Shown: positions 33,269 through 48,099 of the stretch, piece by piece
How the letters are laid out: every line of letters starts with the position of its first letter
How positions within the stretch are numbered: the first letter of the stretch is position 1
Source: Candidatus Thorarchaeota archaeon
Lineage (GTDB): Archaea > Asgardarchaeota > Thorarchaeia > Thorarchaeales > Thorarchaeaceae
DNA length: 64,000 nucleotides
Reading direction: 5' to 3'
Assembly (NCBI GenBank): GCA_018335335.1
Contig: JAGXKG010000001.1
Location: forward strand, 62,001-126,000
Position numbers and translations under genes: made by a program
Notes under the pieces: generated by a model
Told to the model about the DNA's origin: nothing
Databases searched by the model: none
Seen by the model: the letters and a program-made list of their open reading frames with translations, nothing else

Positions 33269-34507
33269 TTACTCACTCAGAAGTCTATCTACTGCTATCA
33301 GACCACGCTTCAGGTCCGAGTGCGAGAAGGTATCTGCATTCTTGGGTATTGAACCGATTGAGAGAAGAAGAACAAGCGAAAGTAAACGGGGGACAAGTCC
33401 TGTATGTTCAAGCAGAAACTCTCTGTTCCCTGTTGCATCAACAATCAGACCCTCCAATCTACGGCTGAGCAAGCTCAAATGATGACCAAGTTCTTCTGAG
33501 AAGGCAATTTCTCTAAATAGTTTCTCAAAACGAGAGATGTTATCCAATAACTCTGGCGGCATCCCCGCTTTTTGAAGAAGTGTCATTGCATTGACAATAG
33601 CTTCTTCATATTCATTAGATCCAACTATAGGACGGGAATGCTTGGTGCTATCGAGCTGAACAAGGAACCGTAGAGAATTGGTCAAGATGTTCCTTGAAAT
33701 ACTAGGTAGAGTGGAGGATACTTTGGTGAGCAGTTGACTATGCTCATCTTCGAACCTCGCCGCTTGGGAAGACTCAAGACTGTTTTCAAATTCGCTAGAT
33801 ATTTTGACTTCAACAATTCTAGGTAATTGTTCGTGAGTTCCAATTCTTCGTACCGCAGTCAGTGCAACGAATTCCTCTCGAGAAACATAGAACAAGAGAA
33901 TCCGAACCAAGTCATATGCGATTTCGAAATCCTCCTCGTTGATTCGCGATTTTCCTTTGCCCCGGGCCGAAGCCGCACAGAGAAGGGCCCAAGAACTGAT
34001 AACCGCATCACAAATGCTCTTGCGTTGGTCCTGACTGAAATCATGTTGTTTGAGAAAGCGGGAAAGGCGTTCAGCAGCTCCATCAATTCTTCCCAGTGCG
34101 CTGCTTCCCATTTTCACCTCACTCAACGATTGTAGGAAATCGCGAGGGTCATGAGATGGAGGGCGGATGATAAAGCTTGGAGCTGACCTACTCATGCGCC
34201 ACCACTTAGTTGTTGAAAGAAAATAGTCAAGGACATCTACAGATTGGGTCAAATCAGATGTGGTGGAAGTCTCTCTTGAATCAAGGTAGGTTATCATTTG
34301 CGAGAAGAGAGACAGAAATCGAGATAGGTGGGTGGGTAGGTCTTCACCTGCAAATCGACATTCAGAGAATCTTTCAACAAGAGATTTGATTCTATTCGAA
34401 GCTCCTGTTGAAAGCTCACATTCCGCTAAGCCGTGATATACATCTATTGGCTTTCGTGCCAAAGTTCGATATCTCCAATTGTCTCTGTTGTAGAGGGAAG
34501 AAGTCAT
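33269..34507 (-). CDS. unknown helical protein (412 aa)
   Basis: The protein is almost entirely helical, with no cysteine cluster, signal or membrane segment. Two regions look like the small helical lid found behind AAA+ cores: KSRINEEDFEIAYDLVRILL near residue 203 and KNADTFSHSDLKRGLIAVDR near the C-terminus. There is no P-loop, so if the resemblance is real the protein keeps the lids but not the ATPase. I do not recognise a family and it may be specific to this lineage. It lies between acdB (convergent) and uppS upstream in the same direction, so it could be cotranscribed with uppS. No function is proposed. Confidence 0.7.
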   Translation of the reverse strand: MTSSLYNRDNWRYRTLARKPIDVYHGLAECELSTGASNRIKSLVERFSECRFAGEDLPTHLSRFLSLFSQMITYLDSRETSTTSDLTQSVDVLDYFLSTTKWWRMSRSAPSFIIRPPSHDPRDFLQSLSEVKMGSSALGRIDGAAERLSRFLKQHDFSQDQRKSICDAVISSWALLCAASARGKGKSRINEEDFEIAYDLVRILLFYVSREEFVALTAVRRIGTHEQLPRIVEVKISSEFENSLESSQAARFEDEHSQLLTKVSSTLPSISRNILTNSLRFLVQLDSTKHSRPIVGSNEYEEAIVNAMTLLQKAGMPPELLDNISRFEKLFREIAFSEELGHHLSLLSRRLEGLIVDATGNREFLLEHTGLVPRLLSLVLLLSIGSIPKNADTFSHSDLKRGLIAVDRLLSE

Positions 34508-35390: not shown

Positions 35391-35762
35391 TCAAATCATG
35401 GTTGCGACTTTTTCTGCCGCCCGTTTCATGTCCAAGAATACCAAACCCAATTTTGCATCGGCAGTAGTGGATACAGTAAGGCAGGCATTCATGCCAGCTT
35501 GAATTACGAGAAGCCAACCGTCATTTCCCTTGATATTGACCTGCTCCAAATCCCCCTTTCCTAGCTCAATGGCAGCTTTCTCTCCCAAAGTCAACATCGC
35601 GGCTGTCATCGCAGCTACCTTTGCCTCATCAACATTCGTAGGCAGGGCTGAAACGATAGGCAACCCTTCGACACTAACTATCGCACATGCCTGTATTTCA
35701 GGAATACTACCTTGTAACTCGTTTAGTACGCTTTCCAGCGTTTCACCGCGCGATTCCGCCAT
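35391..35762 (-). CDS. Roadblock/LC7 domain protein (123 aa)
   Basis: Roadblock proteins dimerise and act as regulators or platforms of small GTPases in bacteria, Asgard archaea and eukaryotes. The domain covers almost the whole protein: AESRGETLESVLNELQGSIP helix, then IQACAIVSVEGLPIVSAL, AAMTAAMLTLGEKAAIELG helix, and strand LLVIQAGMNACLTV. I take the ATG seven bases after GGTGAG. It is the last gene of a minus-strand operon that starts with two other Roadblock genes and a GTPase. Binding to that GTPase is likely from the context and from MglA/MglB precedents, but is inferred. Confidence 0.86.
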   Translation of the reverse strand: MAESRGETLESVLNELQGSIPEIQACAIVSVEGLPIVSALPTNVDEAKVAAMTAAMLTLGEKAAIELGKGDLEQVNIKGNDGWLLVIQAGMNACLTVSTTADAKLGLVFLDMKRAAEKVATMI

Positions 35763-35776
35763 CTGTTTTCTCACCT

Positions 35777-36340
35777 TTACTTGTACATTCGCTTGAGTAT
35801 TACCTCTCGTGCTATAGCTTGGAATGCCCTCTTAACTCCAACGCCCTGTATAGCAATAGTTTCATACACGGGTATATTCCCGCCTAATCCTAAAACATCG
35901 AGCATCTCGTCTCGTGACATCCTGTTTGGAAGATCTCTCTTGTTGAGCATGATTACTATGGGGACTTCACGTTGTAGAGAATCTCCGAGGAATAGCTTCA
36001 GCTCCTCAAAGCTCTCCGCATTCTCATCCCTCTGATCAGGAGATGAATCAGCAACAAAGAGGATGCCGTCGGTTCCTTGGAGGACGACCTTTCTCTGATG
36101 CCGATGTCGCTTTTGGCCAGCCACTGTAAATACGTCAAACAGAACCCGGCCGCCTGCACTCATGGGTACATAGTCGAAGAAGAGTGTTCGGTTTGTCTCA
36201 TCTTCAATAGATGTGAAATCACCCTTCTGTAGTCCTTCGACTTTACCGTACAACCATCGTAGTGCTGTGGTCTTTCCACCTAGGCTTGGGCCATAGAATA
36301 CGATTTTTAGATGAATGCGACCTTTATCGTCCTTCCGCAT
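35777..36340 (-). CDS. small Ras-superfamily GTPase, MglA/Arf-like
   Basis: This is a complete small GTPase of 187 residues. G1 is GPSLGGKTT at 17-25, close to the MglA form (GPxxxGKTT). G3 is TVAGQKRH, with Ala in place of Pro and Gln at the catalytic position. G4 is NKRD and G5 is a weak match near IAIQG. There is no C-terminal cysteine box, so no prenylation is expected. The ATG follows ggtgg by six bases. It lies between Roadblock genes on one operon, as MglA lies beside MglB in bacteria. It is likely to work with them in polarity or membrane regulation; the process is unknown. Confidence 0.9.
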   Translation of the reverse strand: MRKDDKGRIHLKIVFYGPSLGGKTTALRWLYGKVEGLQKGDFTSIEDETNRTLFFDYVPMSAGGRVLFDVFTVAGQKRHRHQRKVVLQGTDGILFVADSSPDQRDENAESFEELKLFLGDSLQREVPIVIMLNKRDLPNRMSRDEMLDVLGLGGNIPVYETIAIQGVGVKRAFQAIAREVILKRMYK

Positions 36341-36576: not shown

Positions 36577-37044
36577 CTAGACCTTCTCGAGCTCTTCCAA
36601 AGCCTGTTTGAGTCCTTCCTCGTCAAGCTCTTTACTCTTAGCAGGAGTTGAAGTTTCAACTGCCAAGAACTTGTCGAGCTCGTCAGCCAATTCCTTGCCT
36701 TGTTTTTTCATGACAAGACGAATGAGTCCAATGTTTACCTCAGCTCCAGAAACGACGCTAAGAACACCTTTCCCACAAGCCGATGCGAAGATTTTCCCAT
36801 CGGAGAACTCAGAGGTGACTATTTCCAAATCACCGATCTGAAGATTCTTACCTTGTTCTTCACTTGCACAGAAAACCGCGCTAGCAATAGCACCAATCGA
36901 ATCGGTATCGACAGGGAAAGGGGCCAACTTTGATACGTTGGCAATGGTAAGGCCGGTCTTATCAGTCAAGATAACGCGTTTAATCCCCTTATCCTGCCTA
37001 ATAATCTCAGTCAAGATTTTGTCGAATTGTTTTGGGTCGCTCAT
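36577..37044 (-). CDS. Roadblock/LC7 domain protein with C-terminal tail (155 aa)
   Basis: The Roadblock fold is seen in the helix PKQFDKILTEIIRQDKGIKR, strands VILTDKTGLTIANVS and EIVTSEFSDGKIFASAC, and a final helical region. The domain ends near residue 120 and a charged tail of about 30 residues follows (KSKELDEEGLKQALEELEKV). I choose the ATG after GAGGG; the other ATG two codons earlier is too close to it. It lies in the Roadblock-GTPase operon and is the longest Roadblock protein here. It may pair with one of the other Roadblock proteins in a heterodimer. Confidence 0.84.
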   Translation of the reverse strand: MSDPKQFDKILTEIIRQDKGIKRVILTDKTGLTIANVSKLAPFPVDTDSIGAIASAVFCASEEQGKNLQIGDLEIVTSEFSDGKIFASACGKGVLSVVSGAEVNIGLIRLVMKKQGKELADELDKFLAVETSTPAKSKELDEEGLKQALEELEKV

Positions 37045-37064
37045 AATCATTACCCTCTCAATCT

Positions 37065-37358
37065 TTATTTCTTAAGGACTATCAGAATCAAGCCCTCTTT
37101 CTCATCAGGCGCGATATTAATCTGACCTTTAGATGTGTCAAGTGTGAGGAACGACAGCGAGCCCTCTTTGAGCTCTCGTACTGCGTCCAAAGCTTTGCCA
37201 ACAAGAGAAGTCACAATTGCTGCGATATTCTCTGTTGTTTGAGCGTCTAGGTCGCTGCTCAGGGGTAGTCCTTCCATGCTTGTTACGATTACGCCGCGAA
37301 CCCCTTCCTGAGCTTTGAGCTTGGAAAGGATTGATTGTAATTTTTCTTGGCTTATCAA
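37065..37358 (-). CDS. Roadblock/LC7 domain protein (97 aa), first gene of operon
   Basis: This is a minimal Roadblock domain: helix [20 protein letters not shown], strand [16 protein letters not shown], helix [20 protein letters not shown] and strand [13 protein letters not shown]. The start is a TTG; no ATG exists near the domain start. It is first in the minus-strand operon, with 20 bases to the next Roadblock gene. The region upstream (37359-37539) holds a 10-base inverted repeat. Function is inferred from the family and operon only. Confidence 0.82.
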
Positions 37359-37539: not shown

Positions 37540-39171
37540 CTACTCTTCGTCCTCATCATCATCTTTCAGTAGTGAACGAGAATTTCGCCTCATTTGTGCA
37601 AAGCTCTTTGTTGATGCTAAATCAGCAGCTGCTGATGGCCCCGCGAGAGGCGCTTCTTTCATCATCTCTTGGGTCTGCTGAAGCTCTTCCTCTTCAGAAG
37701 CCAGAGCTCTGTCTACCCGCCTTATGTTATTTTCAATCGATGAAGGTGCTTGTTTCGCGCGGCTCACCATAGCTTTCCTGAATGATGCAATTCTCTTTGC
37801 ACCTTTACTGTGCTTTCCACGGAAGGCTTCTTCACCAGCCTTCTGGGTGGTGAACGTAGCAGCGAGCTTTGGATCAAAACTGGCCATGATTTCGTTCTCG
37901 TCTTTTGTAACATTCAAACGGGTTGTTACAGAACGAATACGCCTTGCTCCACTCTTGTCGAGATATTCCACTTGCAGCTGCACAGGAATGTTATCTGCAT
38001 CAATCTCTTCCTCTGGTTCCATTTCGAAGTAGAGTTCATGATTTTCTCCTACGACGCCCACTTTTCCAGGTTTCTTCGATTTTATTTCGTCAATCACAGC
38101 CCGTGACATACCTGACGCATCCTTGACACGCACACCTGTTGGAGTTATCATGCGAACAGTAACATCACGTGCAATGGAAGAAGAGCCCGCAAGGGTAGAA
38201 AGGCTTCTGTCAAGCTCATTTGGCGTCACGTAGTACATCTGGCCACCTGTTGCCTCTGGAAGGAGGGCAAGCGTCTTCAGCTCCATTCCAGAACCGCCAG
38301 CGATCCCCACCACATCAAAAGCCGTGCCAATATCACGGAACATCTGTCCCATCTGTTCATAGTAATCAGTTGCAGGCGTAACCTGGAATCCTTCCAACGA
38401 ACCGATGCCTTCATTGGCAAGGCCATCTGTAAGAAGCAAGAGGTGCCCAACATCTCGATGTTTCGCAATAGTATATCCCATAGCAACTGCTGGACCTAGC
38501 GCGGTCCCTCCTTTCGGGCCCAAGTCTGCTACATGTCTTTTCAACCTGTCACTATTTTTCCCGACAGCGACCATTTTCACATCATCCAATAGAGTCCGAC
38601 TCGTTTCTAATATCCGGTTCAAACTGGGGAAAGCACCCCTTGGAAGATGGACAGCTTCTCCGGTCAGCGGATTTCTATAGGCGACCGAGCTTTCAAACTC
38701 GATTATGCCGAATAGAGTCTCTGGTGAATTCGCTGCCAGAGAGTCGATTGAATTTCGTAGACTTCGTTTAACAGCCTCAAGATTCGCGCCACCCATTGAC
38801 CCAGATACGTCTATGAGTGCTAGGAAGGCGCCACTAGCAGTTGACACTTCTTGTTCAGTAGTTTCATCTTCGGAAGAAGGGGGTGTAATCAGAAAATCGG
38901 TTTCGTTTCCTGCCGTAATAATCTCCCCTTCAACAACATTGAGAGTTCCGCAGAATGGACAAATGAAATGTTTTCCAACTTTAGAATCCTCTACAATCTG
39001 GTCAGTACTGATGAGATATCCTCCGCAACGTTCACAAGCAATCGGTTTTCCTACGATTTTCCTAACTTCGCGGCTAAGACCGCTGAATTCCACACGCATA
39101 ACATAGGGGATATCGCCTAGAATCTTCTTTGAGGCCGGAAAGGAGTTGGATGTGGGCTTGAGCAGGGGCAT
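37540..39171 (-). CDS. Sec23/Sec24-like protein: zinc finger, vWA and helical domains
   Basis: The protein (543 residues) begins with a zinc finger, C46-xx-C49 and C71-xx-C74, whose text (CERCGGYLI ... FICPFCGTLNVVEG) closely resembles the Sec23/Sec24 zinc finger of the COPII coat. A vWA domain follows: MIDAS DVSGSM at 121-126, a threonine in GGTALGP, and LLLTDGLANE. Then come a beta-rich part (about 330-430, VTVRMITPTGVRVKD and later) and a charged helical C-terminus. The order zinc finger, vWA trunk, beta sandwich, helices is that of Sec23/24. The intact MIDAS differs from Sec23/24. It stands directly upstream of the Roadblock-GTPase operon. Function in membrane coating is a hypothesis; a general vWA adaptor is the alternative. 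Confidence 0.82.
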   Translation of the reverse strand: MPLLKPTSNSFPASKKILGDIPYVMRVEFSGLSREVRKIVGKPIACERCGGYLISTDQIVEDSKVGKHFICPFCGTLNVVEGEIITAGNETDFLITPPSSEDETTEQEVSTASGAFLALIDVSGSMGGANLEAVKRSLRNSIDSLAANSPETLFGIIEFESSVAYRNPLTGEAVHLPRGAFPSLNRILETSRTLLDDVKMVAVGKNSDRLKRHVADLGPKGGTALGPAVAMGYTIAKHRDVGHLLLLTDGLANEGIGSLEGFQVTPATDYYEQMGQMFRDIGTAFDVVGIAGGSGMELKTLALLPEATGGQMYYVTPNELDRSLSTLAGSSSIARDVTVRMITPTGVRVKDASGMSRAVIDEIKSKKPGKVGVVGENHELYFEMEPEEEIDADNIPVQLQVEYLDKSGARRIRSVTTRLNVTKDENEIMASFDPKLAATFTTQKAGEEAFRGKHSKGAKRIASFRKAMVSRAKQAPSSIENNIRRVDRALASEEEELQQTQEMMKEAPLAGPSAAADLASTKSFAQMRRNSRSLLKDDDEDEE

Positions 39172-39361: not shown

Positions 39362-39727
39362 TTGGTTGATGAAGGTAGAGTTGAAGAGATTATAGCAGAA
39401 ACCATGTCAGAAAATGCCGTAATCGAAGGAATGGTAGCGTGTAACGCCGAAGGAGAGGTAATCTTTGGTCATACGTTATCTGACAGCATAAAGCACAAGA
39501 AAGTAGCTGATTTAGTGGTAAAGCTCAGCTCGTTTTCCTCACAACTCAGTGGAACTGTTGATAAAGGCGAATTGAAAGAAGTGAGCATCACTTCAGAGAG
39601 TGGATATGTCATCATCCTTGGGGATGTTGAGCTAGTTCTAGCCGCCATCGTAGGTGAAGAAGGGCGTGAATCTATGGGGCTCATCCGGATGACCCTTAGA
39701 AGAGCGCTATTATCCATGTTAGACTAA
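39362..39727 (+). CDS. Roadblock/LC7-like protein (121 aa)
   Basis: This fourth Roadblock-like protein is divergent from the Sec23/24-like gene. It has the helix RVEEIIAETMSENAVIEGMV, strand ACNAEGEVIFGHTLSD, helix KVADLVVKLSSFSSQLSGTV and strand VILGDVELVLAAIV. The start is a TTG, placed by ggagg nine bases upstream. Sequence similarity to the other three is low beyond the fold pattern. It has its own TATA. It may be a further partner of the small GTPase in the neighbouring operon; this is inferred from proximity. Confidence 0.8.
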   Translation: MVDEGRVEEIIAETMSENAVIEGMVACNAEGEVIFGHTLSDSIKHKKVADLVVKLSSFSSQLSGTVDKGELKEVSITSESGYVIILGDVELVLAAIVGEEGRESMGLIRMTLRRALLSMLD

Positions 39728-47559: not shown

Positions 47560-48099
47560 GTGGAAGACCGGTCAGCGGACGAAATTCAAAGCAAAATTAG
47601 TGATTTGGATTTGGACTATATGCGTGGGTTGGTTTCTGAAGAAGAATACAGAACCAAGATGGAAGAATTGCAGAAGAAGTTGGAGGCAGCAGGTGGGAAA
47701 CCTTCTGGCCTCTCTGCAACACAAAAAGCTAAAGAGTCTCTCAAATCGCCACCAGAAGAGAAATTCGCCCAGCAACAAGGAGGGGCAACAACAGATCCGG
47801 TTACAGCCGTCAAAAGAGCTGTACAGAAGTTCAGAAGGATTCCAATAGAACGAATTGCACAAGAAGCTGGTGTAAGTGCAATCAATACAGCCAAGATACT
47901 AACCGATTTATTGGATGGACGAGAACTGTCTGGCCGAATGGATCGTGAAAGAGGCGATCTACTATTGGGGACCGGTAGTGGTCCTGCACCGAAAAACATC
48001 GTAGTATGCCCATTTTGTGGTCGAAAAATGGACAAGATTGCAGTACGGGGCGAGACCATCACCTGTAATATGTGTCAAGAGTCTTTTGTCATTTCATAG
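47560..48099 (+). CDS. unknown protein: coiled coil, winged helix and zinc ribbon
   Basis: The 179-residue protein has an N-terminal coiled coil (RTKMEELQKKLEAAGGK), a Gln/Pro linker, and a winged-helix-like segment (RRIPIERIAQEAGVSAINTA-KILTDLLDG). A C-terminal zinc ribbon is CPFCGRKM ... CNMC. Such a set suggests a small nucleic-acid- or protein-binding adaptor. The start is a GTG nine bases after aggag. It follows the HhH-HEAT gene by 60 bases and may be cotranscribed. The end is convergent with the TfrB-like gene, with hairpins in the gap. Confidence 0.72.
   Translation: MEDRSADEIQSKISDLDLDYMRGLVSEEEYRTKMEELQKKLEAAGGKPSGLSATQKAKESLKSPPEEKFAQQQGGATTDPVTAVKRAVQKFRRIPIERIAQEAGVSAINTAKILTDLLDGRELSGRMDRERGDLLLGTGSGPAPKNIVVCPFCGRKMDKIAVRGETITCNMCQESFVIS

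Follow-up and report, generated by a model that had tools for sequence, protein, structure and literature searches.

Does the gene at positions 37540–39171 of the window (the 64,000-nucleotide stretch of thorarchaeal DNA analyzed here) encode a relative of the COPII coat proteins Sec23 and Sec24, and what might such a protein do in an archaeon? A first-pass annotation had read it as a Sec23/Sec24-like protein with an intact metal ion-dependent adhesion site (MIDAS). The source assembly (2.94 Mb, 97% complete) belongs to the family containing the Thorarchaeota genomes. The Sec23/24-like reading holds: on the combined weight of a full-length fold model, a collinear profile match that includes the zinc finger, a phylogenetic tree, and shared residues missing from bacterial relatives, the protein almost certainly belongs to the Sec23/Sec24 superfamily. 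Our overall explanation, to which we assign a probability of about 0.62, is that it represents an Asgard Sec23/24 core that precedes both the Sec23-Sec24 duplication and the addition of the gelsolin domain and that serves as a cytosolic scaffold with a metal site.

Asgard Sec23/24 genes have been on record since 2017, so the finding, though solid, is of a kind already known. Passages in PMC7613921, PMC9648965, PMC7997004, and PMC10307638 state that Sec23/24 or COPII homologues are present in Asgard (and TACK) archaea and cite Zaremba-Niedzwiedzka et al. (2017) for it. As far as the passages in the last three of these sources go, the homologues of 2017, those of Thorarchaeota above all, are very probably the same family, with the window gene as its thorarchaeal member. 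In the literature searched, we found no description of the intact MIDAS or of the GTPase-roadblock gene cluster reported below.

Domain layout, predicted fold, and conservation

The gene is an intact open reading frame (ORF) of 543 amino acids with an ATG start, and it fills exactly the span given at first pass. Its parts are as follows.

37540–39171, minus strand: Asgard Sec23/24-core protein, 543 aa (ORF; Pfam Sec23_trunk, Sec23_BS, and zf-Sec23_Sec24; AlphaFold2 model and Foldseek)
39052–39171, minus strand: N-terminal strands, aa 1–40 (profile alignment to Sec24A from residue 3; strands in the model)
38929–39045, minus strand: Sec23/24-type zinc finger, aa 43–81, with C46, C49, C71, and C74, and N78 after the last pair (Pfam zf-Sec23_Sec24, 2.8e-5)
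38182–38838, minus strand: vWA/trunk domain, aa 112–330 (Pfam VWA_2 and Sec23_trunk; model)
38797–38811, minus strand: MIDAS motif DVSGS, aa 121–125 (D121, S123, and S125 invariant in 32 homologues)
38503–38505 and 38425–38427, minus strand: T223 and D249, completing the predicted metal site (alignment of 32 homologues)
37906–38178, minus strand: beta-sandwich, aa 332–422, with the Q.....Y....G.RR.R motif common to Sec23/24 (Sec23_BS, 3.5e-7; motif comparison)
37654–37899, minus strand: helical domain, aa 425–506 (four helices in the model; yeast Sec24 match reaching position 468)
37543–37632, minus strand: C-terminal helix and charged tail, aa 514–543, in place of a gelsolin domain (tail alignment; no gelsolin match)

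The Pfam matches are arranged as in Sec23/24 (zf-Sec23_Sec24, 2.8e-5; Sec23_trunk, 6e-7; VWA_2, 1.8e-7; Sec23_BS, 3.5e-7); Sec23_trunk lies above its Pfam cut-off, zf-Sec23_Sec24 half a bit under, and Sec23_BS passes in a six-frame genome search. The ORF and these matches agree with the succession first proposed, a zinc finger (CERC...CPFC, within ACERCGG...FICPFCGTLN) followed by vWA, beta-rich, and helical parts as in COPII Sec23/24, and the zinc finger and trunk families that had been suggested as a check were both matched. The proposed domain order needs amending at the two ends, as N-terminal strands precede the finger and the gelsolin domain is missing. The strands of aa 1–40 are the counterparts of those that join the beta-sandwich in Sec23/24 and, by analogy with Sec23/24 and ArnB, would pack there. 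Pfam Sec23_helical has no match in the 543-aa protein, and the helical domain is recognized from the model helices at 425–506 and from the fold match. A gelsolin domain has neither a Pfam match in the protein nor, in the model, space past residue 510, and the window protein is therefore not Sec23 or Sec24 proper.

The AlphaFold2 model, built with a 32-row alignment, reached a pLDDT of 87.6 and a pTM of 0.88. In a Foldseek search of the PDB, 46 Sec23/Sec24 chains headed the list (E, 5e-31 to 8.7e-22; TMq, 0.60–0.72, mostly 0.65–0.72), followed by a Catenulispora vWA protein (4fx5; 1.9e-17; TMq, 0.47) and then by Sulfolobus ArnB (8s05; 4.6e-16; TMq, 0.44; TM, 0.60–0.62 of ArnB). The ranking was the same for the model of a Heimdall-labelled homologue (pLDDT, 81; pTM, 0.77). 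A mismatch of the beta and helical parts with Sec23/24, which had been named as grounds for giving up the idea, thus did not occur.

The family is spread over several Asgard lineages, in line with the survey proposed at first pass. A protein search found a homologue in 38 of 59 relatives, and a profile search matched 98 of the 228 genomes of the phylum, with about 78 strong near full-length matches, 3 fragments at contig edges, and ∼17 matches to the vWA domain only. Thor-, Hermod-, Jord-/Freyr-, Loki-, Borr-, and Sigynarchaeota and one Heimdall-labelled genome supply the named loci, and most genomes carry a single full-length copy. Among 32 homologues scanned against Pfam, Sec23_trunk was matched in all, Sec23_BS in 31, and zf-Sec23_Sec24 in 17; such agreement lies far beyond chance. 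Within the finger, C71, C74, and N78 are present in 32/32 sequences and C46 and C49 in every row that covers them. The tail keeps a short motif, M-R/K-x-S-S-x-x-L-F in Thor- and Hermodarchaeota and a similar one in Jord- and Borrarchaeota, with R-x-R-x-S in Loki- and Sigynarchaeota.

All five MIDAS positions are present in the window protein: DVSGSM at aa 121–126, T223 within GGTALGPA, and D249 within LLTDG. D121, S123, S125, and D249 are invariant (32/32), and position 223 is threonine in 31 sequences and serine in one. The claim that the site is intact, unlike in Sec23/24, holds for the whole aligned set, as the MIDAS is complete in 32/32 Asgard relatives and degenerate in the aligned Sec23/24 sequences.

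Relation to Sec23/24, bacterial vWA proteins, and ArnB

The single window sequence already found Sec24 as its top match in the PDB (1.3e-4). With a 13-sequence family profile, Sec24A was matched at 5.5e-16, collinearly over positions 3–434 (strands, finger, vWA, and beta-sandwich), yeast Sec24 over 41–468, and Sec23A at 3.4e-4, while the match to ArnB (5.3e-10) took in part of the vWA domain only. The human and yeast Sec23 sequences used were verified letter by letter against PDB chains, with the few differing residues taken from the PDB. The window protein thus resembles COPII Sec24 and Sec23 in the order of strands, finger, vWA, beta-sandwich, and helical domain (TMq of about 0.7), in the finger spacing with its following Asn, in the Q.....Y....G.RR-I/L-R motif, and, for Sec24, in ALGPA. 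It differs in lacking the gelsolin domain, in its intact MIDAS, in usually occurring as one copy instead of a pair, and in having an MglA-class rather than a Sar1 GTPase as its neighbor.

Bacterial vWA proteins share much of this core. Catenulispora 4fx5 and proteins of 410–480 aa from Chloroflexota and Bacteroidota have an intact MIDAS, a TDGLAN loop, and a vWA domain followed by beta and helical parts; they differ in having no zinc finger (0/16 relatives in the alignment), a lower fold match, and no RR-I/L-R motif. In the bacterial rows inspected by eye, C-x-x-C-x-x-x-N, A-L-G-P-A (Sec24), and Q.....Y....G.RR-I/L-R were absent, all of them common to the Asgard and Sec23/24 sequences. In profile-profile comparison, a 14-sequence bacterial vWA alignment scored 5.3e-31, against 2.3e-23 for a Sec23/24 alignment that was thin (3 sequences), which makes the core intermediate by sequence. 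The bacterial match begins at column 73, past most of the zinc finger, and the finger-less core is widespread in prokaryotes, which marks the vWA/beta-sandwich/helix core as an ancient module of prokaryotes. It is the zinc finger and the N-terminal strands that tie the Asgard family to Sec23/24. The other stated ground for rejection, a best match to ordinary bacterial vWA proteins, is partly realized: the profile-profile scores favor bacteria (5e-31 versus 2e-23) and the core is shared, but the bacterial proteins have no zinc finger and fit far worse by fold.

Trees, unrooted and with a long Sec branch, were computed under LG+C20 mixture models. Asgard proteins and Sec23/24 split from bacterial proteins and ArnB/ArnE with support of 100/100, and the same split was recovered at 100/100 from the vWA and beta-sandwich columns alone, with the Arn rows and the longest of the bacterial ones left out. 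Sec23 pairs with Sec24 (100/100 and 89/97), so their duplication looks later than the split from the Asgard lineages. The tree fixes no branch order among these lineages, and hence no sister group of Sec23/24 within them; monophyly of the Asgard proteins could not be rejected (p-AU = 0.50).

The strongest competing account takes the protein as a phospho-signalling scaffold of the ArnA-ArnB kind, with the finger in cis, a metal in the MIDAS, and a phosphorylated helical or tail region that would switch a loose complex to a tight one and so control some other process. ArnB consists of a vWA domain, a split beta-sandwich, and a helical bundle, with Na+ in the MIDAS, and the zinc finger of the separate protein ArnA docks on the ArnB beta-sandwich and C-terminal domain; the authors of that work noted the likeness and regard ArnAB as an archaeal relative of the Sec23/24 core (PMC12852372). 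The window protein has this layout too, a MIDAS vWA followed by a beta-sandwich and a helical bundle (model; Foldseek, 4.6e-16), ArnB is among the best predicted fold matches after Sec23/24, and the Asgard tail has conserved S/T next to basic residues. Membership in the ArnB family was nonetheless rejected, since ArnB_C (PF18677) matches nothing in the source genome (a Sulfolobus control was positive). The ArnB profile match is moreover confined to the vWA domain, the tree puts Sulfolobus ArnB and ArnE (vWA2) on the bacterial side, and we identified neither an FHA domain in the protein nor an FHA partner. We regard this account as possible but unlikely.

A neighboring MglA-class GTPase and roadblock cluster

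The first-pass annotation had pointed to a nearby GTPase. In the window, the gene stands among the following features.

37065–37358, minus strand: roadblock protein C, directly downstream (Robl_LC7, 5.6e-16; adjoins the gene in Thorarchaeal loci)
36577–37050, minus strand: roadblock protein B (Robl_LC7, 2.8e-9)
35777–36340, minus strand: MglA-class small GTPase (MglA, 1.8e-39)
35391–35774, minus strand: roadblock protein A, 2 bp downstream of the GTPase (Robl_LC7, 3e-17)
39362–39727, plus strand: divergent roadblock-like protein D, upstream of SMC-ScpA-ScpB (Robl_LC7, 3.5e-4, weak and below the cut-off; kept in the Thorarchaeal loci that reach it)

Against solved relatives, the GTPase matches MglA (1.8e-39) far better than Arf (1.4e-12) or Sar1b (1.4e-7), and roadblock genes lie on both sides. 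A Sar1-type neighbor is thereby rejected: the enzyme is of the MglA class, not Sar1/Arf, and is linked to the gene in Thorarchaea only. There, two roadblock genes come after the gene on the same strand, then the GTPase, one more roadblock gene, and a cis-prenyltransferase; on its other side lie the divergent roadblock-like gene and SMC-ScpA-ScpB. Roadblock C lies beside the gene in 25 of the 26 named Thorarchaeal loci (24 by script; in L069, the roadblock C ORF overlaps the gene end), and roadblock B and the GTPase are present in 22/22 of those 25 loci that are long enough. Identity across these loci is 89–94% for the GTPase, 77–90% for the roadblock proteins, and 42–64% for the Sec23/24-like protein; among the proteins compared, the GTPase changes slowest, and the Sec23/24-like protein is among the fastest. 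At the cluster end, a 412-aa protein (window positions 33269–34507) with no Pfam family shows 38–46% identity across Thorarchaeal loci.

Outside Thorarchaea, no neighbor is conserved across lineages and the gene stands alone, so GTPase linkage was dropped as a family-wide feature. In two lokiarchaeal loci, a different, Ras/Rab-like small GTPase (L082:6622-7149 and L084:6560-7093) precedes the Sec23/24-like gene by ∼0.8 kb, in the same orientation. The cluster also occurs without the gene. In genome G005, it is intact and the gene is located elsewhere; in G004, a 96%-complete Thorarchaeal assembly, the whole cluster is present, but between roadblock D and roadblock C (L189:5950-6677, contig 34) the gene is reduced to its last codons, AAADEVSTMNLAQMKRSSKDLFEDEE-stop, either by natural deletion or through an assembly gap. 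These two cases indicate that the cluster does not need the gene and that the association is common but optional.

The cluster bears on a bolder alternative, in which the protein would be a putative proto-coat that, like Sec23/24 with Sar1, polymerizes or clusters on membranes together with the neighboring GTPase to form vesicles or protrusions by budding. The predicted Sec23/24 fold over the full length speaks for it, as do the adjoining cluster in Thorarchaea and a genome that has 22 or more matches to Arf-like GTPases and encodes gelsolin-domain proteins separately. However, the gelsolin domain, which in the Sec23-Sar1 structure bears the catalytic arginine facing Sar1, is absent from the protein, the neighboring GTPase is MglA-class, one copy makes no Sec23-Sec24 pair, the GTPase link is confined to Thorarchaea where the cluster can do without the gene, and no Sec31-like partner was identified in this analysis. 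GTPase-driven vesiculation does exist in archaea, as shown by haloarchaeal vesicle formation, where a small GTPase acts with two operon partners (DUF2073 and DUF2072 proteins, not vWA proteins) (PMC10927574). On balance, a proto-coat seems improbable. We hold it slightly more improbable still that the Thorarchaeal protein regulates, or acts as effector for, a GTPase switch of MglA and roadblock proteins, as a scaffold of the inner-coat type predating the Sec23/Sec24 duplication and gelsolin fusion; if it did, it would be a living intermediate of COPII evolution with an MglA-class GTPase where eukaryotes use Sar1, and with a metal-dependent contact since lost in eukaryotes.

Possible function and evolutionary reading

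An ordinary bacterial-type vWA protein with a merely generic likeness to Sec23/24 is very hard to credit: the core is widespread, with its 5e-31 profile-profile match and MIDAS and TDGLAN motifs common to both sides, but the Sec23/24 fold match is ∼14 orders of magnitude better, only Sec23/24 align with the N-terminal strands and with the finger, which they carry at the same insertion point, and the finger-less relatives are set apart in the tree at 100/100.

We return to the Asgard Sec23/24 core as a cytosolic scaffold. Its mechanism, for which we put the chances at even, could work as follows. The protein would be soluble, with the zinc finger packed on the beta-sandwich/helical side much as the ArnA finger packs on ArnB. 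The intact MIDAS would hold a metal ion and bind a partner protein at an acidic residue, with metal and ligand together switching assembly, and the exposed, charged C-terminal tail may offer another motif for binding or phosphorylation. In Thorarchaea, the MglA-class GTPase next to the gene and its roadblock regulators would probably be among the partners and would bring the scaffold to a membrane surface. The analysis shows the homology, the fold, the intact metal-site residues, the missing gelsolin domain, and the Thorarchaeal cluster; metal-dependent ligand binding, a scaffold role, and the connection to the GTPase are inferred.

A gene of this kind would most likely have given rise to eukaryotic Sec23 and Sec24: it was duplicated, gained a gelsolin domain by fusion, and lost its MIDAS in this scenario. 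The MIDAS would then be ancestral, kept by the Asgard family and lost by eukaryotes. As it is intact family-wide, the loss of the metal site, the gelsolin fusion, and the duplication probably all came later, on the eukaryotic branch; a later fusion is plausible given that the source genome encodes separate gelsolin-domain proteins. A soluble, single-chain, single-copy protein with all the Sec23/24 parts in order save the gelsolin domain opens the biochemistry of the ancestral COPII inner coat (metal site, self-association, and membrane or GTPase binding) to direct tests, with the Thorarchaeal MglA-roadblock cluster as a concrete candidate partner and the lineages in which gene and cluster are apart as natural controls.

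A family-wide second paralogue was not seen among the surveyed genomes. The Thorarchaeal genome G023 has a divergent Sec23/24-like copy (40%) along with a fragment of the normal copy (L037, which is contig 210, and contig 196), which suggests a second paralogue or a transfer, and G022 has a truncated second copy. Elsewhere in the window, a 179-aa ORF (47560–48099) gives a weak PCI-domain match (5e-4, below the cut-off).
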